Shown: in pieces, positions 35 through 24,058 of the stretch
Position numbering within the stretch: the stretch's first letter is position 1
How the letters are laid out: the number at the start of each line of letters is the position of its first letter
Source: a virus
Length of the DNA: 43,896 bases
Strand: one strand, 5' to 3'
IMG/VR virus record: IMGVR_UViG_3300033149_001657
Span: 64,001-107,896 of that record
Notes under the pieces: model-generated
Databases searched by the model: none
What the model was told of the DNA's origin: nothing
What the model saw: the letters and a program-made list of their open reading frames with translations, nothing else
Program-made: the position numbers and the translations under genes

Positions 35-1105
35 CTAAAGGTCAGAAGCACTGAAGCTTCCAGACTTAGCATTAACAATTATACCGATTGCATTATCATC
101 TGTAACTGCAAATTCTCTCTCTGTCCATAGATGATACCATGTTCTATCTATTGCTGGTTTGCTCTCTTCCTCAGCTTCCAGGTCTCTCTTTATAACGTGA
201 TACCCAAGTCTGCTGGAGTCAACCATAATAGCTACTCCCTCTGGAACAAGTGGTGATTCTACTATCCTCAGATCAGCTATCATACCTATCTCTCCACTTA
301 TCAGATCTTTGTTGTAGAGTTTGGCATTTACAAACAGAGATGAAACATCTGGATCATATAACAGTGTAGATACTTCAGTGCTATTTACCAAGACTATATC
401 TGGATTTACAGTAGCAGCTAGCAAAGTGGATCTAAGATTGAATATGTCCCATGCAGTAAGAGATGATTTCTCACTAACGTCAACTACTAGACCAGATGAC
501 TTGCATCTGTTTGAGTATAAAAATGTAACTGTAGCAGCTGAAACAGAGTTTGATAGGAGAACCTTGCCATCATAATAGTCTACTGCATTTATAGTAGCTC
601 CAGGTGATACAGAAGAGATAGTAACTATCGGTGTCAGTGTTGTACTTCCAAGTGTACCACCACTCCAACTAGATATTGTACCAGATTTCAGATCAAGAGA
701 TATAGTTTGAGCTCGAAGATCCAATTCTTCAGCTAGTTTTTTACCAGCTTCATATAGAAAGTCCTTAAGAACATCTCTCACTGGCATCTCAAGAGCTTCA
801 TTATCTATTTCAAGTCTTATACCAAACTTAGATACTTCAACAGTTGTACCAGTATATGAAATTGTACTGGAGGATGAGATAGTACCTCCTTCAGAAAGAG
901 TCTCAACTGTTATACTTTCAGTAACATTAGGAAGAACAATACTTCTGGCTTTTACTTTCTCAAGATCTTTATTCTCTCTAAATATTTGAGATATTACAGT
1001 TTTACTTCTAGATACAAAATCAACAGTCTTAGATATTATTCTAGGAGTGATTTCCTGAACATCAGCTGTACCTAAAGCTAATTCAACCAGATCTTTCTCT
1101 CTCAT
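35..1105 (-). CDS. HK97-type major capsid protein, copy 1
   Basis: Forms the icosahedral shell of the head. The 356 residues are collinear from end to end with the second capsid protein at 9474-10535: shared NEALEM followed by a RDV block (residues 102-112), D-x-RAQT, LDLKS and SW-GG segments (129-150), a beta-rich insert (about 155-200) and C-terminal SGEIG, VPEG and RLGY motifs (270-302). Length and a position just after a prohead protease and scaffold fit HK97-fold capsid proteins. Start: ATG with AGGAGGG a few bases upstream, overlapping the previous stop as ATGA. It is the last gene of a minus-strand operon with protease-scaffold and two coiled-coil proteins; T-rich DNA follows the stop. 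One exact GATAGTWACTATC palindrome lies inside it. The HK97 assignment is by pattern and context, the paralogy by direct comparison. Confidence 0.85.
   Translation of the reverse strand: MREKDLVELALGTADVQEITPRIISKTVDFVSRSKTVISQIFRENKDLEKVKARSIVLPNVTESITVETLSEGGTISSSSTISYTGTTVEVSKFGIRLEIDNEALEMPVRDVLKDFLYEAGKKLAEELDLRAQTISLDLKSGTISSWSGGTLGSTTLTPIVTISSVSPGATINAVDYYDGKVLLSNSVSAATVTFLYSNRCKSSGLVVDVSEKSSLTAWDIFNLRSTLLAATVNPDIVLVNSTEVSTLLYDPDVSSLFVNAKLYNKDLISGEIGMIADLRIVESPLVPEGVAIMVDSSRLGYHVIKRDLEAEEESKPAIDRTWYHLWTEREFAVTDDNAIGIIVNAKSGSFSASDL
617..629. repeat. GATAGTWACTATC palindrome, exact copy 1
   Basis: Exact 13-bp palindrome inside capsid gene 1, coding Ile-Val-Thr-Ile on the minus strand. 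Confidence 0.75.
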
Positions 1106-4026: not shown

Positions 4027-6021
4027 TCATTTCCTCTTCTCCCTTATCTGAGATCTAACAAACTCATGTAGCTTGTTTTTCTTAATCCAATTAACTGCCT
4101 TATCATAATCCCATTTGTCAGATTTAAACGTTACATAAGCTACTCTAGCATGATGAATCTTGCCTGGTACAGAATATAGCCCTATAGCTATTTCCACTCC
4201 TTCTGGAATTTCTAGATCTGGTAGATACTTCTTTACTCTCTCATCTGGTTCTACTCTAGTAAACTTACGTATATCATAGATATGTACTATGAAATGATCC
4301 CATCCTCTCTTCTCTTCTATTTGGAATGGATCAAATGGTTCTCCTGTTCTAGGATCACCAGCTGATAATAATTCATAGTATAGCTCCATTAACCTGAATT
4401 TCTTAGATAGTTCTGGACTTGGAAGTTTACTCTTCATAAATTTCCACTCACCATTAGTCTTTCTTATAATGAAGTAACCTTTGAGTTTGCTACCTTTTAT
4501 GTTCATTGAAATAAAGTTTGGACTAGTCTCTAGCAGTGTAAGTTCACCATGATCCACAGTCTCTACTTTTGACCATACACCATAAGATCTTATCCTTGTT
4601 CCTGGTTCTTTTATAGACATCCATTTATCCACATCTACACCACAAGTTTTGTAAACAGCTTTTATTGGCTCTTCTATTTTAGCTTTTATTGGATTACCAT
4701 ATAGATTAACTTCTTCAAGATAGTTACTATCTTTTAGCTTCCATCTCAAGTCATAATGATAGTCAGGATCATCTTCAGGGAACCAGTGTTTATCTAATAC
4801 GAACTTTGCAATTCTTTCTTCTAGTTCTGATAGTTTCTCAAATGTGTAAGTATCTGTATCTGGATCTTCTTGTATTAACTGCCATCTACCACGTAGCTTC
4901 TTACCTTTAAATTCGATAGTTACTATCTCTTCCCCTGTTTCAGTTCTCTCTGTAGAATATTTAGCAGTACCACTATCTACAGTAGTAAAGTCAGCTGCCA
5001 TTCTCTTGTTCTCATTGAACTTAGTATCTGGACCAATCACACCATCATATGACATCCACTTTCTATCTGATCTGTCCATTTCATAAGCTCCCATTACTTC
5101 GTCTCTCAATGGATAGCCATCTAGTAGAAATGTACGCACTCTTCCCTCTCCTTTATCGTCAATGAATAAATACCATCTAAACTGAGGCACCTGTCTTCCA
5201 GACTTTGCTCTAAATCCCATCCAGCTCACTAAAGCTAGTGAAAACTTTACATTTTTTGATAGAAGCTCATCCTTCTTAGAGACATAGAGTTTTTCTAGCT
5301 TGTTAATATCTTTCTCATCAGACTTAGTAATCCACTGTAACCATTTTCTATATTGATCTTCAAAGTTCTTCTTAACCCATTCTTTAGGAAATGGAAATGG
5401 ACATTCCTTAGGTGGCTTCCATTTCTCTCTAATTGCTCTATTAGAAATAGTATATGGCAATTGAGTCTTTGGTATCATAAATCTCCACATCCTCTCATAC
5501 TTACCAGGAATAGGTTTCTTAGTTTCAGGATCTATCTTAGCTACTTTAATGCCTCTGATCACCACTCTAGTCCAGTCTTTAAAATACTTGTTATCTTTAA
5601 GGAAGTATTCATGGAAATAGACTTTCTGAGCTCCAGTCATATGCACACCAGTAGTTAGTATCTCAAACTTACCTGGAGCATCTTCTCCAGCTCCGACTTC
5701 ACCAGGTGGCACTTCACCCTCTACTTTTAACCATTGTAATGGTTGCCTAGCTTTAGTCTCAGCTCTAAATCCTTTACCAATATTGTCTAAAAGATTCTGG
5801 ACAGAAAATGGATCATCCTCACTAAACCCAACTATAGACCATCCAATCAAATATCCATTAACCTTCAATCTTAAATCTCCATGATTAGACTTCCCTATAC
5901 TATGTCTCTGAATAACAAATGGTTTTGGCTCCGTTACATACTCCATATACTTAGCAACTAATTTAGCTGCTATATTTTCTGAAACAACTAGCTCATCCAA
6001 CATATACTTATATATTTTCAT
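4027..6021 (-). CDS. LigD-like 3'-phosphoesterase repeat protein
   Basis: Probably trims or processes 3' ends for the ligase encoded immediately upstream. Residues 35-61 (FVIQRHSIGKSNHGDLRLKV then W) match the 3'-phosphoesterase (PE) domain of LigD, whose H-x-D-x-R triad appears here as His47, Asp49, Arg51 with His40 before it. EGEVPPGEVGAG (about 101-112) matches the PE 'EGxIPxGEYGAG' strand. At about 276-385 comes a second PE-like unit with a SYDGVIGP strand and a GKKLRGRWQLI end but no catalytic His/Asp. At about 409-530 a third has His412, HYDLR (His422, Asp424, Arg426) and SKLKGYFIIRK. At 664 residues it is far longer than a single PE domain (about 150-200), so it seems to be a triplicated PE. 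ATGA overlap and a good GGAGG tie it to the ligase gene. Motif matches are seen; activity is inferred. Confidence 0.7.
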   Translation of the reverse strand: MKIYKYMLDELVVSENIAAKLVAKYMEYVTEPKPFVIQRHSIGKSNHGDLRLKVNGYLIGWSIVGFSEDDPFSVQNLLDNIGKGFRAETKARQPLQWLKVEGEVPPGEVGAGEDAPGKFEILTTGVHMTGAQKVYFHEYFLKDNKYFKDWTRVVIRGIKVAKIDPETKKPIPGKYERMWRFMIPKTQLPYTISNRAIREKWKPPKECPFPFPKEWVKKNFEDQYRKWLQWITKSDEKDINKLEKLYVSKKDELLSKNVKFSLALVSWMGFRAKSGRQVPQFRWYLFIDDKGEGRVRTFLLDGYPLRDEVMGAYEMDRSDRKWMSYDGVIGPDTKFNENKRMAADFTTVDSGTAKYSTERTETGEEIVTIEFKGKKLRGRWQLIQEDPDTDTYTFEKLSELEERIAKFVLDKHWFPEDDPDYHYDLRWKLKDSNYLEEVNLYGNPIKAKIEEPIKAVYKTCGVDVDKWMSIKEPGTRIRSYGVWSKVETVDHGELTLLETSPNFISMNIKGSKLKGYFIIRKTNGEWKFMKSKLPSPELSKKFRLMELYYELLSAGDPRTGEPFDPFQIEEKRGWDHFIVHIYDIRKFTRVEPDERVKKYLPDLEIPEGVEIAIGLYSVPGKIHHARVAYVTFKSDKWDYDKAVNWIKKNKLHEFVRSQIREKRK
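4717..4733. repeat. GATAGTWACTATC palindrome, exact copy 2
   Basis: Exact copy (4719-4731) extended to a perfect 17-bp palindrome, AAGATAGTTACTATCTT, inside the phosphoesterase-like gene. Codes Asp-Ser-Asn-Tyr, a different phase from copy 1. Confidence 0.75.
4915..4927. repeat. GATAGTWACTATC palindrome, exact copy 3
   Basis: Exact copy, 196 bases from copy 2 in the same gene, coding Ile-Val-Thr-Ile. Confidence 0.75.
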
Positions 6022-8963
6022 TCTAGTGTCCTCCTCTCATAGATTCTATAACCATAATAATATGATTTGAGATACACACATCTGAATATACTAGCTAATG
6101 GACATGCTACTGGAAACCTAAGAGACTGAATCTTTAACTTTGTCATCTCTTCATATCTAGGTCTACCAAATATCATTTTCAATGGGCAAACCGACTTGTC
6201 CTCACTAAATGGACATAATTCCAAATCAAGTACTATTTCCTTAGAAAGCTCAGCTGGTCCAGTTCCTAGCTTAGCTATTCTCTCTACAGTCGTAAGAGTA
6301 TCTGGCTCTTTCTTGTCCAGTCTCTTCTCTTTAAAATAAGGAAACATCCATGTGTAATAATATTTGCCATCTTTAGTTTCATACCGTCTGATTCTAATTG
6401 GCATCACAGTGATGATGTCTCCTCTCCTACACTTGACATCTGTAGCATAACTTCTTCCTATAATTGCATAGTGCTTACCCTTGTACTCTACAACCTTATT
6501 CTTTGGAAAGTCATCTACTTTATCCTCTGGTATCAAATAGACAGAGACATACATATAGTTCCCTAATGGTTCACCAGTCTCCTTTCTCTTCTTTTCTATT
6601 ACATCCCATACCATTACATCTATTTCTTTGAGATTCTTGAGCTTAGCCCATCCTTCAACTCTGTTCTCTCCCTTATACTTGACTGGATATGTTGAATCAG
6701 CTGCTTTAGCTACTACTCCTTCAGAACCATTTACACGTCTCATCTTCTCAACAGCTGCTAAGAACTCTCTTGGAGAATCAACATAAATTGATCTTACCAC
6801 ATCAAGATATTTTGTATTCTTTGGAACTATCTTCTCCAATAGTTTAAATCTCTCAGAATATGGCAGATTCACTACAGGTTTCCCATTGTAATACATGATA
6901 TCATAGAACACATAGACAATTCTCTTCTCCAGATCTGGAGAAACTCTTCCAATTGTAATAGCAGCTGTATCTTCTCTTTCCATCAAGTCATAATTATTTC
7001 TCTTTAGCTTAGCAGATTTAACAGAGACATTTGAAGGTATCTCAAAAGCTACCATCTCTCCATCAAGAATACAACTATCACACTTAAGACTATCTTTGAT
7101 TTCTTTAATTATATTTGGGAACTGTTTAGCTCTATCTCTCTGTCTATCTTCTGTAAATATCTTAATAAGGTCCTTATCTTTGTCAACATGAAGTTGCATT
7201 CTGCGTCCATCAACCTTTTCCTGTACGAAGATTCCTTTATCTATGTATTCTTTAGCCCAATTCTCATACATCTCTTTGGAATCCCAGAACTCATATTTCT
7301 CGAACCCACTCTTTGGTTTGGCACCTATTATCGGTTTTCCTATCTTTATCTCTTTAGATAAATGTTCAAAACGGAATGGACCAAATCCTCTAACCATTTG
7401 ACTGTAAGGGATCTTAAAGAATCCTTTTCTATAGACATTTAGAGAATATCCAATTAAAGGACCGTATTTGTCAAAGACTGGATGTATTCTTCTCCCTAAC
7501 CATCTAGGAGAAATTGATTTTAATGCTCTAACTATCCTTGGATCATATTCTCCTTTTATGATGATATCAATATCATGATCCTTAGGGATTTTCCCCTCAT
7601 TCACTAATCGTCCAGCTATATACATATCATATGGTTCATCATTTAATATGATATGTATTGGAAGTGATTTCATTACATCTTCTAAAGTTATGTAGTCTCC
7701 TTCTGGTTCTGGCATCTCTTCTGATTGGAAAATAGCTTTTGGTGTTGGATATTCAGACACTTCTAACTCCACAGCTTTCTCCAGAATATTATTTCCTTTG
7801 TTCTCTTCCCATAGACCTCTCTTATAAAGTTCAATACCCACGAATACAGCTGCATCGTGGATATTTTCTGGTATCTTCTCTGGAGTATCAGCTGAGTGTT
7901 CCGCCATATCTACTAACAATCTCCATAGTGAAATTAGATCTTCATCTGTAAGTGATATAACAAACTCTGCATCTATATCTTCTATTCTCATTCCTTCTGG
8001 AAGTGAGAATAGTAACTGTGATTGTTCTTCTTTCCAAGGAATATTCTCTTTACCTATTTGTTTCACAATCCACTCAAATAATTCTCTAGCATGTTTCTTG
8101 TATGTCTCTGGTTTATTGAACGTAAACTTAGTAATCTCTTTCTTCTTGTATTCATTGTATCTCCTAATCATTTCTTTAGCAATAGATAATCCAAGCTTTT
8201 TGGTATCATCTATAGTAATTGGAGTACCATCCTTTCTTTTAAGAGCCTTACCTTCTTTAATCGAAGAGTACCAAGCTAATACTATTCTCCAGTCATCAGC
8301 TAGAGATCTATCATCCACATTCTTTATATTCCTAATATAATCTTCAACCGATTCTCTGATTAGATAAACAATTCTATCACAAGCTGTTCTAGATAAATGA
8401 ATCATACCTCTATCTAACATTTCATTTGCTATTATAAAGTGTGCTTCACAACATGGTGAGAATAATTCTGTGTATGAATGATAGAAAGCATGATACTTCT
8501 CCAGTTCTTCATTCATCATTTCACTTGGTTTGATAAATTCTATATTTTCAGCTCTAACAAATGTCTGAATTCCCTTTGGTATTCTTACTGGCTTAGGAAC
8601 TGAAAACGGTTTGAACATGAATTCATAAACATATAATGGTTCAGACCAATCCCATTCTTTGTATTCTTCTTCTGTTATCTTATGTTGATCTCTTAGCTTA
8701 TCAAATTCTTCTTTAGTTATCTTCTTAGGTTCTTTTAACCAAATTATCCCATAACATAGATCACCAGAAATAAGATACAGTGGTTCATCAATATGTTTCT
8801 TAAATTTACGATGTTTAACAATTAGTGTTTTCTTACCTTTCCATATAAGTTCACTATGAGGTTCTGTCAAATACAAACCCATCTTAGGTTCTTTAGGAAA
8901 CTCTTTAGGTATAATTGGTTCTATATCCTCAGGCTTAAGCTGTAACATTTCTTTCTCACTCAT
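6018..8963 (-). CDS. Multidomain ATP-dependent DNA ligase
   Basis: Seals DNA nicks by the ATP-dependent lysine-adenylate route. Counting from the upstream GTG (8981), the ligase core lies at about 575-880: motif I EKVDGRR (nucleophile Lys589), LDGEM (639-643), FYDIMYYNGK (692-701), EGVVAKA (754-760) and WAKLK (778-782), then an OB fold. Before it are an ASCH/PUA-like domain (about 34-150, LYLTEP...W-GKKT), a helical region (150-400), and a nucleotidyltransferase-like segment with AGRLVNEGK and DHDIDIII (455-476). After it a C-terminal module has Cys923, Cys932, Cys960 and Cys968, perhaps a zinc or Fe-S site. About 980 residues is far above the usual 300-600. Start: the ATG at 8963 lies about 13 bases downstream of the start site predicted from a TTTAAAT box at 9000-9006; the GTG at 8981 would lie upstream of it. 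First gene of its operon. Confidence 0.85.
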   Translation of the reverse strand: MSEKEMLQLKPEDIEPIIPKEFPKEPKMGLYLTEPHSELIWKGKKTLIVKHRKFKKHIDEPLYLISGDLCYGIIWLKEPKKITKEEFDKLRDQHKITEEEYKEWDWSEPLYVYEFMFKPFSVPKPVRIPKGIQTFVRAENIEFIKPSEMMNEELEKYHAFYHSYTELFSPCCEAHFIIANEMLDRGMIHLSRTACDRIVYLIRESVEDYIRNIKNVDDRSLADDWRIVLAWYSSIKEGKALKRKDGTPITIDDTKKLGLSIAKEMIRRYNEYKKKEITKFTFNKPETYKKHARELFEWIVKQIGKENIPWKEEQSQLLFSLPEGMRIEDIDAEFVISLTDEDLISLWRLLVDMAEHSADTPEKIPENIHDAAVFVGIELYKRGLWEENKGNNILEKAVELEVSEYPTPKAIFQSEEMPEPEGDYITLEDVMKSLPIHIILNDEPYDMYIAGRLVNEGKIPKDHDIDIIIKGEYDPRIVRALKSISPRWLGRRIHPVFDKYGPLIGYSLNVYRKGFFKIPYSQMVRGFGPFRFEHLSKEIKIGKPIIGAKPKSGFEKYEFWDSKEMYENWAKEYIDKGIFVQEKVDGRRMQLHVDKDKDLIKIFTEDRQRDRAKQFPNIIKEIKDSLKCDSCILDGEMVAFEIPSNVSVKSAKLKRNNYDLMEREDTAAITIGRVSPDLEKRIVYVFYDIMYYNGKPVVNLPYSERFKLLEKIVPKNTKYLDVVRSIYVDSPREFLAAVEKMRRVNGSEGVVAKAADSTYPVKYKGENRVEGWAKLKNLKEIDVMVWDVIEKKRKETGEPLGNYMYVSVYLIPEDKVDDFPKNKVVEYKGKHYAIIGRSYATDVKCRRGDIITVMPIRIRRYETKDGKYYYTWMFPYFKEKRLDKKEPDTLTTVERIAKLGTGPAELSKEIVLDLELCPFSEDKSVCPLKMIFGRPRYEEMTKLKIQSLRFPVACPLASIFRCVYLKSYYYGYRIYERRTLE

Positions 8964-8999
8964 AGTAACTAAATCCCTCACATTAAATTCAACATTATC

Positions 9000-9473: not shown

Positions 9474-10535
9474 ATGAAAAACATTACAGAACTAGCTGTT
9501 GGCACAGCAGATGTAGCTGCAATTACAGCTAAGGCTATATCTGATTCTATAGAAGAGGTCACAAGACAGACCAATGTGTTTGCTCAACTATTTAAGCCTA
9601 ACAGAGATCTTGTTGGAGCCAATAAACCAAGAGAGATAGTTTTTCCTAAGAAATCTACTGGAATATCTGTTACTTGGGGAGTTTCTCCTGGATCTTCAGT
9701 ATCTCCTAGCTCATTCTCATATGATTCAGTGACTATTGCAGTTCAAAAAGTTGGTATTCAGCTTCAATTCACAAATGAGGCTCTTGAAATGGCTCTTAGA
9801 GATGTTATTCAAGATCATATCTATGAAACTGGTCTTGAATATGCAGAAGCTGTAGATGCTCGTGCTCAGACTGTCCTTCTTGATCTAAAGAGTGATACCA
9901 TTACTTCATGGACTGGTGGATCCATAGGAGCTGCAACTGCACCTGTAATCAGTATTACATCTGTGTCTGGAGCCACTATAGAGAGTGTCAAGTATGATGA
10001 AGGAAGTGTCATATTAACTGGCTCAGTGGCAGCTGCTACAGTGGTTTATACTTATGCTAACAGACTTAAGTCAACTACACTATGGGTTGGAGCTTCCTCA
10101 GCTGGCAGCTTATCACCTAAAGACATACTCAGAGCTAGAGCCAAAATGATTGGTCAGTACAGAGATCCAGATGTCGTTATTATCAATCCAGTCGACACTA
10201 CGACACTATTCTTTGATTCTAATGTTAAACTTGTAGATGCTTCTCAGTATGGTGGAAGAGAACCTCTTCTAAATGGCGAACTTGGAAAACTCTTTGGCAT
10301 GAAAATTGTAATGTCCACTGGTGCTCCTGAAGGATGTGCTATATTAGTCGACACCAAGAGACTTGGATATGATGTTAGAAAGAGAGAACTAGAAGGTACA
10401 AGAGAAGTCAAGCCTGGTCTTGACTCAGTCTTCTATTACTTCTGGGCTGAGAGAGACTTTGGTGTTGTTGATGACTATGCAGTAGCAGCTGTAGTGAATG
10501 CAGCTAACTCAGATTCAACATATCCAGCTTCTTAA
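9474..10535 (+). CDS. HK97-type major capsid protein, copy 2
   Basis: Full-length paralog (353 residues) of the capsid protein at 35-1105. The same blocks occur in the same order: ELA-GTADV at the N terminus, NEALEM..RDV (101-111), D-RAQT, LDLKSDTITSW-GG, a beta-rich insert with GSVILTGSVAAATVVYTYAN, then GELG, APEG, RLGY-V-KRELE. It lies on the opposite strand, divergent from the protease-scaffold operon, and heads an operon with adaptor, head-closure, tail-completion and tail-terminator-like genes, the usual order after a capsid gene. GAGGTGA lies eight bases before the ATG. A perfect hairpin follows the stop. It may be the true hexamer-forming protein with copy 1 as vertex or alternative subunit, or the reverse; sequence alone does not decide. 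Confidence 0.88.
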   Translation: MKNITELAVGTADVAAITAKAISDSIEEVTRQTNVFAQLFKPNRDLVGANKPREIVFPKKSTGISVTWGVSPGSSVSPSSFSYDSVTIAVQKVGIQLQFTNEALEMALRDVIQDHIYETGLEYAEAVDARAQTVLLDLKSDTITSWTGGSIGAATAPVISITSVSGATIESVKYDEGSVILTGSVAAATVVYTYANRLKSTTLWVGASSAGSLSPKDILRARAKMIGQYRDPDVVIINPVDTTTLFFDSNVKLVDASQYGGREPLLNGELGKLFGMKIVMSTGAPEGCAILVDTKRLGYDVRKRELEGTREVKPGLDSVFYYFWAERDFGVVDDYAVAAVVNAANSDSTYPAS

Positions 10536-12987: not shown

Positions 12988-13098
12988 TTTCTTGTTTCTT
13001 TTAGACCACTTATAGTGACATGATCTACACTCATATACATATCTTAGAATCTTTACCTTCTTGCAGCCACATCTTGGACATCTAACTTTATTCTTCAT
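12850..13098 (-). CDS. Zinc-ribbon small protein
   Basis: 82 residues. The N-terminal third is a clear zinc ribbon (VRCPRCGCKKVKI...YECRSCHYKW, two Cys-x2-Cys pairs) followed by a basic patch. The rest is encoded antisense to the end of the tail-terminator-like gene. Start: ATG 13098 overlaps the stop of the upstream epimerase as ATGA; the ATG nine bases earlier is possible. A 138-base convergent overlap is unusual in this compact genome. The ribbon may be the only conserved part. Function unknown; DNA or RNA binding is plausible. Confidence 0.6.
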   Translation of the reverse strand: MKNKVRCPRCGCKKVKILRYVYECRSCHYKWSKRNKKSIRNHLINSSVSYATSIDDVPYIAYRTNYRRVYPFNTRDIDSFFE

Positions 13099-14078
13099 GG
13101 TAACCACTTCAGTATCTTCAGATCTATTGGAGACAGATGTACAGACGCTTTATGTGAAACATTAAATGTTTTGTAAGATTCCAGTAACATATCAAGATTT
13201 GAATACTTCGGATTCCATTTTAGCTCATGCCTAGCAGCTGAAATATCAAAATAGAAATTCCTATCAAGAGTCATGTAATGCCATTTGGCTACTGGAATAA
13301 ATGGATCCACCAATCTGCCAAAATATTTAACACAAGATGGAAGACATACTATCCTTGACTCTGAACCAACACCAGATATTAAATATGAAATATCTTCTTT
13401 GAGAGTACCAAATCTATTTGTGCCTAGATTAAAATCCTGGTAAAATCCTCTATAAATCATCAATTCTAATGCATCCACTAGATCATCTAGAGATAGTAGC
13501 TGAAATCTGTTGTTTCCATTCCCTATTAGATAGACATTCTTATTATTTCGTATCCAATACATCAAAAGATATAAAATTCCTAATCTATGTTTTCCTATTA
13601 CTGTTCTTGGTCTAACTATGGTAATATTGAAGTCTTCTACCTCCCTAGCAATCTCACAACATTGTTCAGCCAGTAGTTTTGATTTACCATATGGCTCTAT
13701 GGGTATGCGTTCTGAATATTCAGATAATGGACCTGGAGTTCCAGCGTATACAGCTGATGATGACACAAATATAAAGCGACTGACATCAGCGTTAACTGAC
13801 TTTGTAACAAGATCATCTGTTCCATAGGTATTGACTTTAAGATAGTCACCAAACTTCAACTTCTCGACTGGAAGCCTAGCTGCCAGATGATAGACCACAT
13901 CTATTTTCTCCAAGAGATCTTTGCTTATGTTTCTAAAGTCCGTCTTATAATGAGTAAGATTTGGGTGAGCAAAGGGTTTGTCTAGTAGATCCACTGTTAT
14001 TACACTGTGCTCGGTTACTAACTTTCTAGCAAGACTTGATCCTATAAAGCCTGAACCGCCAGTAATCAATATTCTCAA
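13095..14078 (-). CDS. NAD-dependent sugar epimerase/dehydratase (1)
   Basis: Extended short-chain dehydrogenase (SDR) of 327 residues acting on nucleotide or lipid-linked sugars. Rossmann motif GGSGFIG at the N terminus, HLAA at about 71, VSSSAVYAG, and the catalytic Tyr-x3-Lys as EPYGKSK (about 149-155). The initiator is a TTG whose upstream AGGAGAA lies in the end of the previous gene. It is the last enzyme of the glycan cassette. Specific substrate cannot be told; GalE-like or dehydratase functions are both possible. Confidence 0.85.
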   Translation of the reverse strand: MRILITGGSGFIGSSLARKLVTEHSVITVDLLDKPFAHPNLTHYKTDFRNISKDLLEKIDVVYHLAARLPVEKLKFGDYLKVNTYGTDDLVTKSVNADVSRFIFVSSSAVYAGTPGPLSEYSERIPIEPYGKSKLLAEQCCEIAREVEDFNITIVRPRTVIGKHRLGILYLLMYWIRNNKNVYLIGNGNNRFQLLSLDDLVDALELMIYRGFYQDFNLGTNRFGTLKEDISYLISGVGSESRIVCLPSCVKYFGRLVDPFIPVAKWHYMTLDRNFYFDISAARHELKWNPKYSNLDMLLESYKTFNVSHKASVHLSPIDLKILKWLP

Positions 14079-15043
14079 ATTAGTTCTTTTCTCCTACACC
14101 ATTTGATGGATTCTTTCATTCCCTCTCTCAACGAGAAACTTGGACTGTAACCCAGCTCTCTCCTAGCTTTAGAAATATCACATGCTATGTTGAGAGCCAT
14201 TTCTCCAGCTACATGAATATATGATGAGTATAATCTCATCTTTTGTAAGATCCTGTCTAGTAATCTACATCCAGATGAAATGAAAGATGGAAGATAAATA
14301 GGATCTATGTTAACATCAAGTAGCTCAGCTATAGTCTCATAGATTTCGAGTGTAGTGTACGGTCTCTCATCTGCTATCCAATATGTAGTATTCCATCTAT
14401 CCGTCTCTGATGCTAGGAGAATAGCATCTATTAGATTATCTATGTAAGTCATAGATCTAATATTCCTCCCATTACCAAAGATTATTGGTCTTCCAGACTT
14501 TATCATCCTAAACAGTTTGGTTTGTCTTTCTGGTTGATTTGGACCATAATACCAACATGGCTTCAATATTATTCCATCAATCTTTCTAGACTCCCAATAT
14601 CCTCTCAAATATTCCTCAGCTAACCATTTACTTCTACCATAAGCCAAGTATGGCTTCCTGAATGTTCCTTCATTCATAAGTATCTCATCTTCGGTATATC
14701 CAACAGATGAATTACTTGAGATAAAAATAAATTTCTTGACATTGTTGTGTTCACATGCCTTTAGCATGTTTAGAGTTCCCTGAGCATTTACTTCCATTAA
14801 TGTCTTTGGTCTAGCATGAATAACACCAGCTGCATGTATAACTAAATCAATATCCTTGGTTGCTTCAACCAAGGTATATATTTCTCTAACATCACCATTA
14901 ATCACATCAGCTTTCAATGGATTTGAAGAATTTCTTAGTACTAAGCATCTAAGATTCCAATCTTTATGTTCCTTAAGTATCCTCTCAACCAATCTTGTAC
15001 ACAACCAACCAGGATATCCTGTTACAAGAACTCGAAGATTCAT
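14075..15043 (-). CDS. NAD-dependent sugar epimerase/reductase (2)
   Basis: A second extended SDR, 322 residues from the ATG at 15043, which has GGAGGTGA just upstream overlapping the end of the GT2-phosphatase gene. The NAD loop reads VTGYPGWLC, keeping the first two glycines of GxxGxxG but with Cys for the third. HAAGV and ISSNSSVGY follow, and the catalytic Tyr-x3-Lys is YGRSK. With the neighbouring SDR it could perform a two-step epimerisation. In mycobacteria two enzymes convert decaprenyl-phospho-ribose to arabinose; the oxidase partner there is not an SDR, so the parallel is loose. Confidence 0.83.
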   Translation of the reverse strand: MNLRVLVTGYPGWLCTRLVERILKEHKDWNLRCLVLRNSSNPLKADVINGDVREIYTLVEATKDIDLVIHAAGVIHARPKTLMEVNAQGTLNMLKACEHNNVKKFIFISSNSSVGYTEDEILMNEGTFRKPYLAYGRSKWLAEEYLRGYWESRKIDGIILKPCWYYGPNQPERQTKLFRMIKSGRPIIFGNGRNIRSMTYIDNLIDAILLASETDRWNTTYWIADERPYTTLEIYETIAELLDVNIDPIYLPSFISSGCRLLDRILQKMRLYSSYIHVAGEMALNIACDISKARRELGYSPSFSLREGMKESIKWCRRKELI

Positions 15044-15047
15044 TCTT

Positions 15048-16103
15048 TCACCTCCTAATGTATTTCTCATACTCTCTAAGAGACCTGAACTGTTCTCTGG
15101 TTAGATATGCCTGAGGATGTCTATCCTTTAGAAACTTGTATGATTGAATCCATGACATTCCTAGAAACTTTATTAAATATCCACACACAACCATTACAGA
15201 TCTTCCCCTACCTTTATCACAAAATACCAATACATCTTTCTTGTATACTAGATTAGTAGTTAACACATCAACATACTTGTCCAGAATGAGTGGATGTATA
15301 TAAGATCCCTCTTCCATATGAAGTCTAGCATCTATCTCTATTGGAAATTCTTCATGTCCTTTCCCACCAACATATAAATGATTTAGAACTCTTGAATAGT
15401 TACTATTTGTGATATTTCGTATTCTTGAAACTAAGAATCCAAATATCAAATCTTTCTTATCCTCGTACCAAATCTTCAGTAATCCAATAAATGTAGATAT
15501 CCCAGACTTTAATAAATTAGTAAATATTTTGCTCTTGCCATATTGTCTAGAATAGTGATGGATAGGAATCTCTTTGATGTCATATCCGTACTTATCTGCC
15601 ATAAGACAAAGTTCTGTGAGTGGAGTATACTCGAGTTTATTAAGGCTCATTATAATCCAAAGTAGATCTTTCTTTATTAGTTTATAACCACAGTTACTAT
15701 CTCTAAGATTTATACCAAATAAAAATCTAGTTATCAAATTCATAATTCTTGAAAATAGGATTCTAAGGAAACTGTCTTTTCTATCAACCTTAGCTCCAGT
15801 AACTAGATCTCCGTCAATTTCAAATATAGATCTGTCTATCTTATACTGACCATCACCATCCATAACTAGAATTTTATCATAAGAAGCAGCTGCACATCCA
15901 TCCTGAATTGATCTCATATATCCAAGATCTCTTTCGTGTTTAATTAGAACAGCTGGATACCTACTAGCTATCTCCACTGTTCTGTCTGTAGATGCATTGT
16001 CAACTACTATAATTTCTTTAATTTTATTGTATTTCATAGCATCTTCTATTACACTATCAATGCTCTCCTCCTCATTCTTGACTGGTATAACCAAAGATAT
16101 CAT
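15048..16103 (-). CDS. GT2 glycosyltransferase fused to DSP phosphatase
   Basis: Two domains in 351 residues. Residues 1-210 are a polyprenyl-phosphate sugar transferase-like GT2 (DPM1 type): SLVIPVKNEEESI, VVDNASTDRT and the metal-binding DGDG (82-85), then a DSNCGYK stretch. Residues about 240-351 resemble a dual-specificity phosphatase: VGGKGHE, then VFCDKGRGRSVMVVCGYL with the Cys-x5-Arg loop at Cys295-Arg301, then GMSWIQSYKFLKDRHP. The usual His before the Cys is Phe. Start ATG 16103 overlaps the UbiA-like gene stop (ATGA) with GGAGGT upstream. The phosphatase might remove the 5-phosphate left by the UbiA-like phosphoribosyltransferase; this is inference. A protein phosphatase role remains possible. 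Confidence 0.82.
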   Translation of the reverse strand: MISLVIPVKNEEESIDSVIEDAMKYNKIKEIIVVDNASTDRTVEIASRYPAVLIKHERDLGYMRSIQDGCAAASYDKILVMDGDGQYKIDRSIFEIDGDLVTGAKVDRKDSFLRILFSRIMNLITRFLFGINLRDSNCGYKLIKKDLLWIIMSLNKLEYTPLTELCLMADKYGYDIKEIPIHHYSRQYGKSKIFTNLLKSGISTFIGLLKIWYEDKKDLIFGFLVSRIRNITNSNYSRVLNHLYVGGKGHEEFPIEIDARLHMEEGSYIHPLILDKYVDVLTTNLVYKKDVLVFCDKGRGRSVMVVCGYLIKFLGMSWIQSYKFLKDRHPQAYLTREQFRSLREYEKYIRR

Positions 16104-16933: not shown

Positions 16934-17674
16934 CTATTCACCACCAAACAACCAGTTTACAAATCCATTATCATCAATCTCATATGACTTTGATACCTCC
17001 CGTTCTCTACGTTTCTCGCTATATCTTGAAGTTAGAACTGTATGCCCACAAGCTTCAAATGATCTCTCTTTCTCTCTTATATGAAATATTTCACGAGTTC
17101 TACCTATATGATAAAATTTATACCTAGAGACTTTACACTCAATCTGTTTCGTGAAAATTGGAATCTCATCATGTGCAGAACCTTCCTTAGCATGAAAAAG
17201 AATAGAACCAGTTGGAAAAAATCTTACAAAAGGTCCTTCTGTCCCTAAAGTTCTAAATGGTTTTAAAGAGACTATTTCTTCTCTCGGTATCATCCACACA
17301 CAATCACTCTTCATTAGTTCTTCAAAACAATTCTTTGGATCTGGATATATTATTTCGTCTAAATATCCCAATAGCGTCCATTCTCTATCTGACAATAGTA
17401 GTAAATAATTCCAGTTAGCCCAGAATCTCTTGTGATATCCAAAATTAAATGATGGTCTTGAAATTAACATTATGTCTAATTCTTTTCTGTCTTGTAGTCT
17501 TTTAATATATGTTACACTGCCATCTACACTTCCATCATCTAAAATTATCCATGTATCAGCAAACTTTCTAAGATATTTGTAATATATTGGAAGAATTGAA
17601 ATTTCATTATAACATAAGCTAACTACACATATACCAGGTTCAATTCTTCCTGGTACTCTGTAATTAAAGCTCAT
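16934..17674 (-). CDS. GT2-type glycosyltransferase
   Basis: 246 residues with a GT-A fold start: ICVVSLCYNEISILPIYYKYLRKFADTWIILDDGSVDGS, where ILDDGS is the nucleotide-binding strand of family 2 enzymes, and LGYLDEIIYPDP takes the place of the DxD metal motif (D-E). The C-terminal part carries many charged residues and no membrane helix. It overlaps the GT4 gene upstream (ATGA) and abuts the UbiA-like gene. Donor and acceptor are unknown. Confidence 0.75.
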   Translation of the reverse strand: MSFNYRVPGRIEPGICVVSLCYNEISILPIYYKYLRKFADTWIILDDGSVDGSVTYIKRLQDRKELDIMLISRPSFNFGYHKRFWANWNYLLLLSDREWTLLGYLDEIIYPDPKNCFEELMKSDCVWMIPREEIVSLKPFRTLGTEGPFVRFFPTGSILFHAKEGSAHDEIPIFTKQIECKVSRYKFYHIGRTREIFHIREKERSFEACGHTVLTSRYSEKRREREVSKSYEIDDNGFVNWLFGGE

Positions 17675-18720
17675 TCACATACTTCCCTCAGTATGTTCTC
17701 TACTTTTTGTCCATATATTTCCCATGTAAGATTTTGCTTTATCCAATCCCTATTCTTTGGTAACTCTATTTCTCCTTTATAGAGATTATAAATTACATTC
17801 TCGTATGCGTCAGATACTAAAGCCAATTTGTGTCTAGTTACTAAGTCTGTAAATGGAGCTTCTGGTGATACAATAACATTACACTCCATAGCCATAGCTT
17901 GAAATGCAGATAGAAATCCTCCCTGTTGCCTATATGGAATCACTACTACATTTGATCTAGCATAAATATCACGTAATGTCTCCCTTCCAATTTTGTTGTG
18001 AATTATAATATCATTGATGTTGTGTTGTTTTACAGTATTAATTATCATTTCTGCATATTTTGTATTTGTCATCCCAGTAAACACTATCTTTATGTTAGGT
18101 ATCTTATCTTTGAGTCTATAATACATTAAAAGTGTTCTAAACTGATTTTTAAACGGAGAGAACCATCCTGGATGAACCACTAGGAAATCATTATTTGAGA
18201 TTCCAAGCTCATTCTCAGCATTCTCTATATTAGCCTTTGACCTATCGAATAGATCTGAATCTATTCCAAATGGAATGACTACTGAATCCATGCCATAGAA
18301 CTCTTTAACTCTTCTCCTATTAAACTCAGAAAACACTATTATCTTATCTACAGACTCGACTACTACGTTCCTGTCATAGTGTGACAAGTATGATCCCCAT
18401 AGTACATATTCTGGCAGCTCATTGTGATTCCATACGTGTGGATGAATCTTAGGATACAATAGTGTCTCTACTGGGTGATTATGAGAATTGATTACATCAT
18501 AGTCACTGAAATTGTTCTGTACAAACTGATTCATCTGTTTAAGTGACTTTGAAATACTTAGTTTTATCCCATTCAGATCATCTTTAACATTTTCAGACAT
18601 CGCTAAAGTATTAATTGTTACTTCATGTCCTCTAGACAAAAGATAGTTACTAAGTTTTACTATAGCTAGCTCAGCTCCTCCATAAATCTCAAATGAAGGA
18701 TGTAATATTAATAGATTCAT
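17671..18720 (-). CDS. GT4-type glycosyltransferase (1)
   Basis: GT-B fold retaining glycosyltransferase, 349 residues. The N-terminal acceptor domain starts LLILHPSFEIYGGAELAIVKLSNYLLSRGHEV, with the GGAE loop usual in family 4. The C-terminal donor domain has VHPGWFSPFKNQ and PYRQQGGFLSAFQAMAMECNVIVSPE, equivalent to the E-x7-E region though the first Glu is Gln/Gly here. Overlaps both neighbours by four bases. Likely adds a sugar from a nucleotide-sugar donor to the cassette's glycan. Confidence 0.83.
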   Translation of the reverse strand: MNLLILHPSFEIYGGAELAIVKLSNYLLSRGHEVTINTLAMSENVKDDLNGIKLSISKSLKQMNQFVQNNFSDYDVINSHNHPVETLLYPKIHPHVWNHNELPEYVLWGSYLSHYDRNVVVESVDKIIVFSEFNRRRVKEFYGMDSVVIPFGIDSDLFDRSKANIENAENELGISNNDFLVVHPGWFSPFKNQFRTLLMYYRLKDKIPNIKIVFTGMTNTKYAEMIINTVKQHNINDIIIHNKIGRETLRDIYARSNVVVIPYRQQGGFLSAFQAMAMECNVIVSPEAPFTDLVTRHKLALVSDAYENVIYNLYKGEIELPKNRDWIKQNLTWEIYGQKVENILREVCE

Positions 18721-20627
18721 TTCTCATCAACTGCCTTATGTACTTTATGACCTCTCCATTCATATACGGGACAATCAATACAATATTCAGGTAATCTGTT
18801 CTGAATTAGCAGCTGTCTTAAATGTCTGTATCTTGAACCATACCATATCTTTCTAAAGTCCTTAGCTTCAAATATGTTACCCATTCTCATAGACTGTTCC
18901 CATCTCCTTCTGTTGCCTTCATGCTGAGCACAGCATGTAATGACATCTCCATTAACTAAGAAGAATGGCTGAAAAAGAGCCACACATCTGTTCAGTGGTG
19001 GTAGTCTACCGAGAGCTGGTTGATTAACAGATACTCTGATCCCTTCCTCATTAGCTTTCTCAATTATGTCTTGCCTTAGAGATTCTGGTATTTCCATGTA
19101 AAAATCCTCTATCTCTGGATATTTATGGAGCAGTCTGTTATAGAACACAAAGTCAACGTTCAACTGCTTAGCAAGCTCTATTGCTTTCAATGCCTCATGT
19201 TGATTTATCTTGTTGATGACAAAGTGAATACCTATCGATGGGAATGCAGACTTCATCTTTTTCCTAGCATTCTGTAAATGTCTTAGTCCGTCCAGCATCT
19301 TGTCCCATTTGTGTCCTACCCTGAAGTTTTCATATGTCTCTTTAGTAGCTGCATCTAATGATATTATGATCCGTTCCACTCCATACTTTACCAATTTCTC
19401 AGCTCTCTCTTTGGTAATAAACTGCATGTTGTCGTATTGCTCAAAGAATACTCCTCTCTCCTTGATGTATCTAATACAGTCTAGAAAAATTGGATTTGTC
19501 CAAGCTTCACCTATTCCTGTGAATGACATCTGAGCTAGATCTGGAAAATTGTTCATAATAAGAAGAAACTCTTTCCAACTCATCAATCTAGGTTCTTCTT
19601 CAAGATAGGTTCTCTCACACATTCTACACTTGAATGGACATATATTGGATAATTCAACTTCAATGTATCTTGGATACATTTCAGTAGCATACATCAACTT
19701 TATCTTCATCCTATCAGTTGTACAAAAAAACATGTTCATGTCATGAAATTTATAACACCATTCAAGTCCTTTCCTTGTATGTACTGGATTGGAATTGAAT
19801 TCTTTAAGAGCATTAATATCTATCATAGTACTGAAATTGTTGTAGATTAGATGATAGTAACTATCTTTTTTACGTCTTTCATACGGGACTAGTGGAAATG
19901 AATTGTCTACCCATCCATCTGGATAATAGCCAAGCTCTCTAGGAGGAGGTAGCTTAGCTATTCCATAACTCAATAGATCTACATGTTTAACATCTAACTT
20001 TGGATTTGCAACTATGTCGTATCCCATACTTCTAGCATTATAGAAAAAACTAAGGATATTGGCATTTACTGGAGTCAAAAGAAATGGTTCTCTAGCAGCT
20101 AACCATGAAGTTCCTACACAATCTACCTCAAATGGAAAGCTAGCTATAGGTGGAGACTTAGGAGAGAATCTAGCATTGTCTATCCTGAAGCTCCAAGTAT
20201 CATAAAAGTAACTATTATCTTCATTCCAAATATATGGAGCTACTATGTCAGCATCTACCATTAGAAGTCTTTCTATATAGTCATCTGGAAATTCACACAT
20301 ATGAGTATCCATCATAAGAAAGTAATCCTCACTGTCACTCATCAAATTCTGGAAATCATCTATAACACAACCAGCTCCATGAGTACCATATAGTTTCAAC
20401 AGATTGTTTCTTGGTTCCTTGTACACCTCGATCTTGAAGTCAGAATTACTCTTGAAGTCCTTTATTTTATTCAGAGTATGATCATTACTATCTCCATATA
20501 TGAATACAAGTCTAAGATTATTGTGTGGATAAGATAAAGTCATTAGATTACCTGTGAAGTCATCTAACCATTGCTCTGCATTCTTAACCATGATTCCTAC
20601 CATTATATCTGCTTCTTTGGAACTCAT
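18717..20627 (-). CDS. Glycosyltransferase-radical SAM/SPASM fusion
   Basis: 636 residues, two enzymes in one chain. Residues 1-250 look like an Anp1/GT62- or GT2-like transferase: IMVGIMVKNAEQWLDDF, LMTLSYPHNNLRLVFIYGDSNDHT and a metal-site strand LMMDTHMCEFP. Residues about 318-636 are a radical SAM enzyme: Cys330-x3-Cys334-x2-Cys337 (NICPFKCRMCE), FTGIGEA, ISLDAAT, and a C-terminal SPASM-like cysteine set (VITCCAQH, YCIDCPVYEW). The radical SAM half needs an Fe-S cluster and SAM, and may modify a peptide or a sugar. This direct fusion is one I do not recall. It contains one exact GATAGTWACTATC site. Confidence 0.85.
   Translation of the reverse strand: MSSKEADIMVGIMVKNAEQWLDDFTGNLMTLSYPHNNLRLVFIYGDSNDHTLNKIKDFKSNSDFKIEVYKEPRNNLLKLYGTHGAGCVIDDFQNLMSDSEDYFLMMDTHMCEFPDDYIERLLMVDADIVAPYIWNEDNSYFYDTWSFRIDNARFSPKSPPIASFPFEVDCVGTSWLAAREPFLLTPVNANILSFFYNARSMGYDIVANPKLDVKHVDLLSYGIAKLPPPRELGYYPDGWVDNSFPLVPYERRKKDSYYHLIYNNFSTMIDINALKEFNSNPVHTRKGLEWCYKFHDMNMFFCTTDRMKIKLMYATEMYPRYIEVELSNICPFKCRMCERTYLEEEPRLMSWKEFLLIMNNFPDLAQMSFTGIGEAWTNPIFLDCIRYIKERGVFFEQYDNMQFITKERAEKLVKYGVERIIISLDAATKETYENFRVGHKWDKMLDGLRHLQNARKKMKSAFPSIGIHFVINKINQHEALKAIELAKQLNVDFVFYNRLLHKYPEIEDFYMEIPESLRQDIIEKANEEGIRVSVNQPALGRLPPLNRCVALFQPFFLVNGDVITCCAQHEGNRRRWEQSMRMGNIFEAKDFRKIWYGSRYRHLRQLLIQNRLPEYCIDCPVYEWRGHKVHKAVDEK
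19853..19865. repeat. GATAGTWACTATC palindrome, exact copy 4
   Basis: Exact copy inside the GT-radical SAM gene, coding Asp-Ser-Tyr-Tyr. Confidence 0.75.
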
Positions 20628-21856
20628 ATCAATCGCCTATCAGCAACATTCCTACTGGAATGTAGATCCTCCATGACATTATCAAAGAACGGAACCCACT
20701 CCTTCTCAACTAGTTTGTTCCAATCAAAGCGTCTAGCAAACTTTATGGATTTCTTAGAATATCTACTTCTTTGCTTATCATTGAAATAAGACTTCTCTAG
20801 AGCTTCAGCTATATCATAAGGATCCACCATTGACGAGATGGCACCTATGGGAGTGTAAGTATACATCTTTGGCTTAACCAACCATCCACGTCCTTTGACT
20901 AGTTCAGTCATACTTGAGAAGTCATTAGATATAGCTGGAGTACCACATGCCATTCCCTCCAATATTGGAATGCCAAAACCTTCTCTTCTAGAACAATAAA
21001 GCTGAACATCCATAGCATTGTATATTGTACATAGATTCTCCTCTTTAATACCAGTCTCGAATATCATTGGATTCTGGAGGATAACTACGTTTCCTAGCTT
21101 ATATTTTCTTACCAACATTCTAATGTCTATTCCTCTTGGATCTGAAGGATTGGTATATATAAAATATTTTACATCCGATTCTTTTACATCTGGGTTGTTG
21201 TCTAGAAATATTCTTAGAGCCATTATGTGTTCTCCCCATGACTTTCTACTTTCCTTGTCAGAGTTAGCTGCTGTTGTTCCAAACAAGAACACATCTGGTG
21301 GTAGTCCTACTTCTTCCTTAGCCAGTCTCTTGTTCATTGGTTTGTACACAGATGTATCTACACCATGATAGATTACTTTATCATATTTTACTGGTGGATC
21401 ATATGATTCCCATTCATTCTTCTGGAAATAAGTAGGAGACACTCTATAATCATAGGCTCTAATTAAGTTCTGTATTTCTTCTGGATAGTTTACATGATCC
21501 AATGGTCCATATGTCATTGTTGTAGGTAGCTTAGTAGGGAACCAATCGAATGCCCAAGGATCACTCATTAGACAAGCTATGTTAGCTTTTATTGAATTGT
21601 AGTAATGTATACAACTATTCTCTCCAAACCTGCCATTCTTGGATGGAAAGTGAGGTACTCCATTTATTACTATTACTCCACCTGGTTCTATTCCATAGTA
21701 AGCCGATACATATACATTGAATCCATGTTTTACAAGTCCACTTGTAATGTACCTAGTAACTATCCCGTAGCCAGACCTTATATGACTTGCCACACTATGC
21801 CATAATATTCTAAATCTTGATCTCTTCTTTAGCTGAGATTTGTTCTCCTCACTCAT
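20624..21856 (-). CDS. GT4-type glycosyltransferase (2)
   Basis: 410 residues, GT-B fold. Early SGYGIVTRYITSGLVKHGFNVYVS is the acceptor-domain glycine loop; VIYHGVDTSVYKP is the typical interdomain strand; REGFGIPILEGMACGTPAISND holds the E-x7-E catalytic/donor motif. First gene of the glycan cassette, divergent from the plus-strand nuclease gene. A TAATTTAATA stretch about 29 bases before the ATG may be its TATA box. Confidence 0.85.
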   Translation of the reverse strand: MSEENKSQLKKRSRFRILWHSVASHIRSGYGIVTRYITSGLVKHGFNVYVSAYYGIEPGGVIVINGVPHFPSKNGRFGENSCIHYYNSIKANIACLMSDPWAFDWFPTKLPTTMTYGPLDHVNYPEEIQNLIRAYDYRVSPTYFQKNEWESYDPPVKYDKVIYHGVDTSVYKPMNKRLAKEEVGLPPDVFLFGTTAANSDKESRKSWGEHIMALRIFLDNNPDVKESDVKYFIYTNPSDPRGIDIRMLVRKYKLGNVVILQNPMIFETGIKEENLCTIYNAMDVQLYCSRREGFGIPILEGMACGTPAISNDFSSMTELVKGRGWLVKPKMYTYTPIGAISSMVDPYDIAEALEKSYFNDKQRSRYSKKSIKFARRFDWNKLVEKEWVPFFDNVMEDLHSSRNVADRRLI

Positions 21857-22659: not shown

Positions 22660-22860
22660 GTCTGGATCATCTCCTAGACATGTTTTGATGTATCGTTCTC
22701 TAGCTACTCTGTAGGCTGTTCTTATGGATGAGTACTCGTTTAGTTCATCTGGTTCCAGTATCTCTAGACATATCTCTAGTCTTCTTCTAGCTGTTTGAGA
22801 AAGACTATTCAACCATTCTTTGTTCTTTATCTTCCTGGATAGTGGATATCGTTTCATCAT
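22597..22860 (-). CDS. Unknown small basic helical protein
   Basis: 87 residues, rich in Arg/Leu, helical (SQTARRRLEICLEIL, AYRVARERYIKTCLG), with an acidic middle. It overlaps the end of the metallophosphoesterase gene by 56 bases and the opposing nuclease gene by 63, and has no clear ribosome binding site, so its exact start is uncertain. No family recognised. Confidence 0.5.
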   Translation of the reverse strand: MMKRYPLSRKIKNKEWLNSLSQTARRRLEICLEILEPDELNEYSSIRTAYRVARERYIKTCLGDDPDLYFDVPIFIDIEKYKRIVSL

Positions 22861-24058
22861 CCTGAGTCATCTCGTATTGTTTGAAATGTTCTCTTAGGAT
22901 CTGAGCATAGTAAGCCATGTTCTTGTATTCTAGGTTTGGTTCGTTTCTCTCGTACATCTCTATTTTCTCTATTGGATGTATGGGAACTACTGAACATTCG
23001 TTGCCTGCATATATCAGTAGTAAGATTCCAGATGGTCTCTGTTGTATGCTGTATTGCCATTTCTGGAATCCACCTGTAACAGAGATCTTGGTACTTTCAA
23101 ATATTATCTCAGGATTCAGCCAGTGTGAATGTGCAGTTACTACTCTTTCAACTATTACTCCTCTATGTCTGTAGTCTGATATTGTCTTTAGTATGTCTCT
23201 GATGAATGATGGAGCTACTGGATAATAGTCGGATCTTCCGTATCCATGTGTGAATAGTACATTGTAGTGTCCTATTGGAATGCCAATGTCAATAATGGAG
23301 TATCTACTACAGTATCTAGCTCTACTTCCTATGGACTTCTTTAGATACAGCATATAGTTGGACTCTGTATCTTCATGGTGTCCCTTCAACATGTATATTC
23401 TGTGAACTGGAACTATCTTCTCTATCTGCTCAATGGTCTTCTTTATCACACGTTCAGCTAGGAACACTTGCCAGTGTCCTCTCTGTACTAGATTCTCCAG
23501 CTCTTGTCTTCTATAGATGTTTCTACCAGACACTATGTCTCCATTCAGTACTATTCTGGCTCTTTTGACATTGTGGTTGGAGTCTAGATATTTCAGTACT
23601 CTTTCTAGATTATAGATGCAGCTCCAGTAGGTTTCTGGTAGATGGGACTCATGACCCAGATGTAGATCGGAGATAACTACAGTAACTGTGATGTCTGTTT
23701 TTCTATTGGATTCCAGGACCTTGAGTGGTAGTGAGACATTGATGTTCTCTCTTTCTCTGTATTTGTATCTTATCTCTGGCATCTTGTCAACTAGTTTATC
23801 AGCTATCTTGTCTATTATTTTCATAAAAAATTCATCTTCTACTTCATCAAGATCAATATCGTTGTGTCTAATCATGTTCTCTTTGGCTTCACTATAGGTT
23901 CTCCTTGGGATGTCAAACTTTCTCATCCATCTTCTTATGGTTGACTCATTTCTTCCAACTATCTTTCCTATCTGTCTGATAGATAGTCCCTTATTCCAGT
24001 ATAGATCATATAATGTGTCTCTATCTAGCACAAGATCGTACCTCCAAGGTTCTGTCAT
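22805..24058 (-). CDS. HTH-metallophosphoesterase fusion
   Basis: Residues 13-50 form a homeodomain-like helix-turn-helix (LYDLYWNKGLSIRQIGKIVGRNESTIRRWMRKF), as in resolvase/transposase DNA-binding regions. From about 124 comes a calcineurin-like phosphoesterase: SDLHLGH (Asp131, His133), NGDIVSG (Asp174), LKGHHED, FTHGYG and TAHSHW give all the usual metal ligands. It could be a site-directed nuclease or phosphodiesterase, somewhat Mre11-like but without Rad50. A TTTATAAG box ends 16 bases before the ATG, pointing to a leaderless message. 417 residues. Confidence 0.8.
   Translation of the reverse strand: MTEPWRYDLVLDRDTLYDLYWNKGLSIRQIGKIVGRNESTIRRWMRKFDIPRRTYSEAKENMIRHNDIDLDEVEDEFFMKIIDKIADKLVDKMPEIRYKYRERENINVSLPLKVLESNRKTDITVTVVISDLHLGHESHLPETYWSCIYNLERVLKYLDSNHNVKRARIVLNGDIVSGRNIYRRQELENLVQRGHWQVFLAERVIKKTIEQIEKIVPVHRIYMLKGHHEDTESNYMLYLKKSIGSRARYCSRYSIIDIGIPIGHYNVLFTHGYGRSDYYPVAPSFIRDILKTISDYRHRGVIVERVVTAHSHWLNPEIIFESTKISVTGGFQKWQYSIQQRPSGILLLIYAGNECSVVPIHPIEKIEMYERNEPNLEYKNMAYYAQILREHFKQYEMTQDDETISTIQEDKEQRMVE

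Follow-up and report, generated by a model that had tools for sequence, protein, structure and literature searches.

What does a phosphatase do when it is covalently joined to a glycosyltransferase in a tailed virus? The question is raised by one open reading frame in a window of 43,896 nucleotides (positions 64,001 to 107,896 of IMG/VR record IMGVR_UViG_3300033149_001657), which forms part of a 107.9-kb virus record. The record is taken as that of an archaeal tailed virus because it encodes a tail tube, a terminase, an HK97-type capsid, an archaeal-type RadA, a Hef/Xpf-type nuclease and an archaeal DUF2153 protein. Two capsid-like genes of the window (35–1105, minus strand, and 9474–10535, plus strand) lie in opposite orientation and have similar N-termini (..ELALGTADV.. 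and ..ELAVGTADV..); a related record, L042, likewise has two capsid-like genes.

A glycosyltransferase–phosphatase fusion in four virus records

The initial annotation described the frame as a family 2 glycosyltransferase (GT2) joined to a dual-specificity phosphatase (DSP)-like domain. This description is correct: both domains reside in one frame of 351 residues, with PF00535 matched at residues 3–90 and PF00782 at residues 274–347 (Table 1). The strand, which the annotation did not give, is minus. The ATG of the fusion gene overlaps the stop codon of the UbiA gene (ATGA), and an AGGAGG sits 7 nt upstream of it. Similarly, the gene of the first extended SDR starts at an ATG at position 15043, and its upstream GGAGG is embedded in the 3' end of the fusion gene.

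Table 1. Genes and domains of the fusion locus (window coordinates)
Feature	Position	Strand	Basis
GT2–DSP fusion ORF, 351 aa	15048..16103	minus	ATG at 16103
GT2 half, residues 1–225	15429..16103	minus	PF00535 E 6.7e-19
DSP half, residues 229–351	15051..15419	minus	PF00782 E 2.2e-11
Candidate UbiA-fold polyprenyl-phosphate phosphoribosyltransferase (PPPRS), 277 aa	16100..16933	minus	NF008977 E 3.7e-35
Extended SDR 1 (NAD-dependent epimerase/dehydratase family)	14075..15043	minus	PF01370 E 2.4e-32; YxxxK present
Extended SDR 2 (GalE-like)	13095..14078	minus	PF01370 E 5.1e-34; galE TIGR01179 E 1.1e-23
Second GT2-like protein, directly upstream of UbiA	16934..17674	minus	PF13704 E 1.6e-4
Remaining glycosylation cluster: GT4, GT2-like/radical SAM-SPASM fusion, GT4	17671..21856	minus	Pfam

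Other GT2–DSP fusions near UbiA genes were sought and found in three more virus records, all of which carry UbiA: L002, L042 (from another metagenome) and L043/L032, at 83, 70 and 50% identity, respectively. A frameshift or chance fusion is ruled out because these three records, like the window, show both domains in one uninterrupted frame. In the two relatives tested, L042 and L043, both domains score above the Pfam cut-offs (PF00782 at 49.9 and 39.7 bits, respectively, and at 44.1 bits in the window, for a gathering score of 33.5). Separate, unlinked homologues of the two domains were looked for in relatives and not found.

The cassette UbiA–[GT2–DSP]–SDR–SDR has the same order in all four viruses, with genes that overlap or are Shine–Dalgarno-coupled, and in these records the fusion gene never occurs without the phosphoribosyltransferase gene. 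In L042, these four genes alone are kept as a block, while most other glycosylation genes are replaced or rearranged. Between the window and L002, the two closest viruses, the GT2 half has a dN/dS ratio of ~0.16 and the DSP half one of ~0.12; both halves are therefore under purifying selection.

The surroundings of the cassette are more variable. The second GT2-like gene is also present in L002 and L043, and none was detected in the L042 region compared; the gene order of the remaining glycosylation cluster differs in L042. Within this cluster, the product of 18717–20627 (minus strand) joins a GT2-like/Anp1-like domain to a radical SAM/SPASM domain, kin of a tungsten-cofactor oxidoreductase maturase, and L042 has additional radical SAM genes. 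The record has a second block, on the plus strand (L005:8208-11504), which encodes a radical SAM-like protein along with two unannotated proteins that resemble each other, are 206–220 residues long and are perhaps glycosyltransferases.

The UbiA-fold neighbor and the two halves of the fusion

The UbiA protein is very probably a polyprenyl-phosphate phosphoribosyltransferase, because its sequence retains 10 of the 11 PRPP-binding residues mapped from the structure of Mycobacterium tuberculosis Rv3806c (PMC10994848). These ten (Arg22, Lys28, Tyr70, Asn73, Asp77, Lys87, Arg90, Tyr138, Lys143 and Tyr157) are found in all four viruses, counting Arg-for-Lys swaps at Lys28 and Lys143 in two of the four, and Gln135 is not preserved. 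Retention of the PRPP ligands, including all three that bind the 5'-phosphate (Lys28, Tyr70 and Tyr157), supports PRPP as the donor. The NDxxDxxxD motif is also present. The match to NF008977 (decaprenyl-phosphate phosphoribosyltransferase) amounts to 121.8 bits for an equivalog cut-off of 234, under which five PPPRS-like bacterial homologues likewise fall. The Rv3806c structure (8j8j) is matched with E 1.4e-16 by the protein alone and with E 3.3e-27 by a four-virus profile. The PPPRS match beats those to other UbiA families and the gene adjoins the fusion in all four viruses, in agreement with the initial view of a UbiA-like phosphoribosyltransferase coupled to it. An archaeal lipid-ether synthase is disfavored (PRK12882, 29 bits vs 122 for the phosphoribosyltransferase).

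The GT2 half looks like a dolichyl-phosphate hexose synthase in type. It carries DGDGQ at residues 82–86, D135 and HYxRxxGKS at residues 183–191, followed by interfacial helices, and thus resembles AglJ, DPM synthase, ArnC and GtrB in its fold family, its DxDxQ and RxxGKS motifs and its predicted interfacial helices. Unlike the dolichyl- and undecaprenyl-phosphate hexose synthases, it has a DSP added at its C-terminus. Its match to AglJ (TIGR04182, E 2.7e-16) reaches 59.8 bits for an equivalog cut-off of 325, and it stays below every NCBIfam equivalog cut-off; in structure searches it matches ArnC (E 1.6e-12) and DPM synthase (E 2.3e-9). DGDGQ is identical in all four viruses, and the Asp aligned to ArnC (D135) is present in three. 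In the fourth (L043:10001-11029, the same as L032:5581-6609), an in-frame loss of 11 residues in the GT2 half removes the D135 equivalent; the DSP half is complete.

The catalytic loop of the DSP half, VFCDKGRGRS, contains F294, C295 and R301. The Cys-x5-Arg signature reported earlier is intact in all four viruses, in a CxxGRGRS loop that reads CDKGRGRS or CKYGRGRS. The reported Phe in place of the usual His holds for the window; across the four viruses the position is aromatic (F, F, F, Y). The residue 31 positions before the Cys is acidic (E, D, E, E) and the Glu 30 positions before it is invariant, so that [E/D]264 and E265 are the candidate general acids in the window. In DUSP8, the general-acid Asp lies 31 residues before the Cys. 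The domain is short: PF00782 profile positions 1–58 are unmatched, and only ~19 residues separate the LYVGG strand from the general-acid position.

A profile search with the DSP half retrieved DUSP10/16 structures (E ~1e-8). The AlphaFold model of the whole fusion, built from two sequences, had a pLDDT of 40 and was set aside. The model of the DSP half has a pLDDT of 66, with values of 79–91 in its C-terminal half and low confidence in its first half; its top Foldseek matches are DUSP16, DUSP8 and PTPMT1, the last in a structure with bound PI(5)P. The fold thus includes lipid-phosphate enzymes, but it does not in itself indicate a lipid substrate because the top sequence and fold matches, DUSP8/10/16, are ordinary protein phosphatases. 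As judged from the model and the profiles, the domain belongs among the DSPs, and these searches do not choose its substrate. It shares the Cys-x5-Arg loop and C-terminal helices with DUSP8/10/16, PTPMT1 and archaeal Tk-PTP, and differs from known DSPs in the Phe/Tyr for His, the Glu/Asp at the general-acid position, the short N-terminal part and the GT2 fusion.

Candidate substrates of the phosphatase

Phosphatases of several unrelated folds are found next to PPPRS, or fused to it, elsewhere. In Citrobacter youngae, a PPPRS and a HAD phosphatase together yield farnesyl-P-ribose from PRPP and farnesyl phosphate in vitro, and a GalE-like SDR sets the identity of the pentose (PMC11127046). Among annotated plasmids, a HAD domain is fused to PPPRS in Rhizobium, Cereibacter and Granulicella (in Granulicella the HAD score is sub-threshold), a separate HAD adjoins PPPRS in Lactococcus, a PAP2 phosphatase does so in Rhodococcus, and a PHP protein in Halostagnicola and Haloterrigena. 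The EEP fold is possibly another such case: in Streptomyces sp. SAT1, an EEP-family protein lies with a GT2 and an epimerase beside a PPPRS-like UbiA. One PPPRS plasmid locus examined has no adjacent phosphatase. Since a phosphatase of some fold is commonly found beside PPPRS, we propose that the DSP fills that place in these viruses. In the haloarchaeal plasmids, the PHP-domain gene directly follows PPPRS (L036:9890-10570 and L037:9922-10602) and is itself a candidate for 5'-dephosphorylation. Two contigs retrieved by the UbiA pattern, L033 and L034, gave no DSP match in the stretch examined; in L033 (868-2513), an unrelated 63-kb viral contig, a PPPRS-like UbiA is followed, in overlapping frames, by what by eye appears to be a DprE1-type FAD oxidase.

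The initial annotation held that the dephosphorylation step lacks another candidate here, and a Pfam scan that covered almost every ORF of at least 95 residues in the record agrees: it found no HAD, PAP2 or PHP protein, and the DSP is the sole phosphatase in the cluster. Outside the cassette, the window encodes an HTH protein with a calcineurin-like phosphoesterase domain (22805–24058, minus strand), which is also present in L002 and has a similar-looking counterpart at the corresponding position in L042; a second calcineurin-type protein of the record lies outside the window. Near the structural genes are two large neighboring proteins (4027–8981, minus strand), one with a LigD 3'-phosphoesterase-like domain (4027–6021) and the other, 987 residues long, with an ATP-dependent DNA ligase domain.

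Cellular counterparts of the pairing were sought in one bacterial phylum. No DSP lies near PPPRS at any of 81 loci in 78 genomes, the nearest on the same contig being not less than 367 kb away, though many of these genomes are fragmented and short contigs could conceal a pair. On this bacterial count, the DSP–PPPRS pairing has no known cellular precedent; its likely origin would be archaeal chromosomes. In the same phylum, none of 20 long DSP ORFs matches PF00535. A contig scan for GT2–DSP in cellular genomes returned GT2 matches only, and a tblastn search with the DSP against phages and plasmids gave no match. Taken together, the sequences and literature searched contain no precedent for the fusion.

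The initial proposal that the DSP dephosphorylates polyprenyl-phosphoribose-phosphate is thus strengthened by the invariant cassette, the PPPRS ligands and the phosphatases beside PPPRS elsewhere, and weakened by the lack of a DSP at the 81 bacterial loci. It is the best-supported interpretation of the sequence data, with roughly even chances of being right. Also counting against it are the fusion of the phosphatase to GT2 rather than to UbiA, the chance that a host phosphatase performs the 5'-phosphate step, the resemblance of the DSP to ordinary protein phosphatases, and its short N-terminal part with a low-confidence model there.

The covalent link of the DSP to GT2 instead of UbiA speaks for the strongest alternative, in which a host enzyme dephosphorylates the UbiA product and the DSP acts on another phosphate of the same glycolipid pathway. 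Its substrate could be, for example, a polyprenyl diphosphate, a sugar phosphate, or the molecule that GT2 itself makes or uses as acceptor. DSP-type domains are indeed joined to many partners that do not act on proteins; of the 20 bacterial DSP-bearing frames, eight also match ADP-ribosylglycohydrolase, and matches to a starch-binding domain and to MazG occur as well. But in the four records GT2–DSP always accompanies the phosphoribosyltransferase, and the 5'-phosphate step requires a phosphatase, of which the cassette has no other, so we regard this alternative as unlikely, though still a serious contender.

Tyrosine phosphatases are common in bacterial capsule clusters, where they tune polysaccharide synthesis. 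With DUSP8, DUSP10 and DUSP16 as its nearest structures, the DSP might likewise be a regulatory protein phosphatase that acts on Tyr/Ser of host or viral proteins and tunes glycan synthesis. A covalent fusion to GT2 inside a metabolic cassette argues against such a role. Furthermore, no match to the bacterial tyrosine-kinase families was found in the record, by a family search that may miss weak matches: a PF00149 protein detected by direct hmmscan (E 3.4e-8) escaped it, whereas the phosphatase, flippase and GT-C negatives rest on direct hmmscan of the ORFs. We consider a regulatory role improbable.

Finally, the replaced His might mark a degenerate, non-catalytic DSP that only provides GT2 with a binding module or a scaffold. 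The His is replaced in all four viruses and the N-terminal half of the domain is reduced; loss of this residue is uncommon among DSPs because 14 of 15 others with a recognizable loop, a small sample, retain it. Yet low-molecular-weight PTPs lack the same His and are active; the residue is therefore treated as usual rather than defining, and by this analogy its absence does not imply an inactive DSP, nor does it amount to a functional novelty. The Cys and Arg, the GRGRS stretch and the acidic residues all persist at domain identities as low as 45%, which, together with the low dN/dS of this half, makes a scaffold role very improbable.

A proposed route to a lipid-linked pentofuranose

We give marginally better than even chances to a reading of these sequences in which the fusion is part of a viral route to a pentofuranose donor carried on polyprenyl phosphate, with the DSP removing the 5'-phosphate. 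We infer each of its catalytic steps as follows. The UbiA protein, to judge from its ligand residues, would transfer ribose-5-phosphate from PRPP to host dolichyl phosphate. The DSP half would then strip the 5'-phosphate by a Cys-x5-Arg mechanism, with Cys295 as the attacking residue, Arg301 and the loop binding the phosphate, and either Glu/Asp264 or Glu265 acting as the general acid. By comparison with ORF13 of C. youngae, one of the two extended SDRs encoded alongside would probably epimerize the polyprenyl-P-ribofuranose product. The GT2 half, with its membrane-interface helices, may anchor the phosphatase to the membrane next to UbiA and would either make a second lipid-linked sugar or extend the ribose. 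In a more elaborate and rather doubtful version, the fusion would be bifunctional: its DSP would free the 5'-OH of polyprenyl-P-ribose-5-P, and its GT2 would then take this 5'-OH as acceptor, giving a virus-built lipid-linked glycan that contains ribose. We know of no earlier DSP in a phosphoribosyl-lipid pathway and of no earlier GT2–DSP enzyme.

Among the ORFs scanned, Pfam found no flippase (MATE/SMR/GtrA) and no GT-C in this possibly incomplete record, and only UbiA has at least six predicted transmembrane segments. Because neither was found, flipping and final transfer to virion or host-surface glycans would rely on host proteins, and the cassette is classed as a PPPRS-pathway variant rather than as a full three-component system. 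Such a system is the pentofuranose pathway of C. youngae, with the HAD-PPPRS ORF15, the SDR ORF13, a MATE protein and GT136 (PMC11127046). Both clusters combine a UbiA-fold PPPRS with a phosphatase of its own and an epimerase of the extended-SDR type (all predicted here), but the viral phosphatase is a DSP fused to GT2, the flippase and GT-C were not found, and the carriers are archaeal viruses.

The mycobacterial Rv3806c/Rv3807c pair shares with the cassette the UbiA PRPP-binding residues and, as predicted for the viral DSP, a phosphatase for the 5'-phosphate that is separate from UbiA. PMC11127046 assigns Rv3807c to a structural family distinct from HAD, and this phosphatase is not known as a DSP; mycobacterial epimerization uses DprE1/DprE2, whereas the viral record has no match to the FAD oxidase family. 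The haloarchaeal PPPRS clusters on the Halostagnicola and Haloterrigena plasmids are likewise archaeal; a predicted phosphoesterase adjoins PPPRS, and an NAD-dependent epimerase/oxidoreductase is present. They differ in that the phosphoesterase is a PHP protein and that they also encode a transmembrane LPG-synthase-like protein and a DolP GT-C. Like the viral cassette, the plasmid cluster of Streptomyces sp. SAT1 (epimerase–UbiA–GT2–EEP–GT2) has an SDR, a PPPRS-like UbiA, a GT2 and a predicted phosphatase in a row, but there GT2 and phosphatase are encoded by separate genes and the predicted phosphatase has the EEP fold.

If the proposed pathway is correct, the dephosphorylation that follows PRPP loading has been filled repeatedly by unrelated phosphatase folds, here by one of the protein-phosphatase type. 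The cassette is compact and conserved, which makes it amenable to direct in vitro testing. The phosphatase probably helps the virus to build an unusual sugar coat, and archaeal viruses would then carry their own supply of lipid-linked pentofuranose and with it control over surface glycans, for which our literature search found no precedent.
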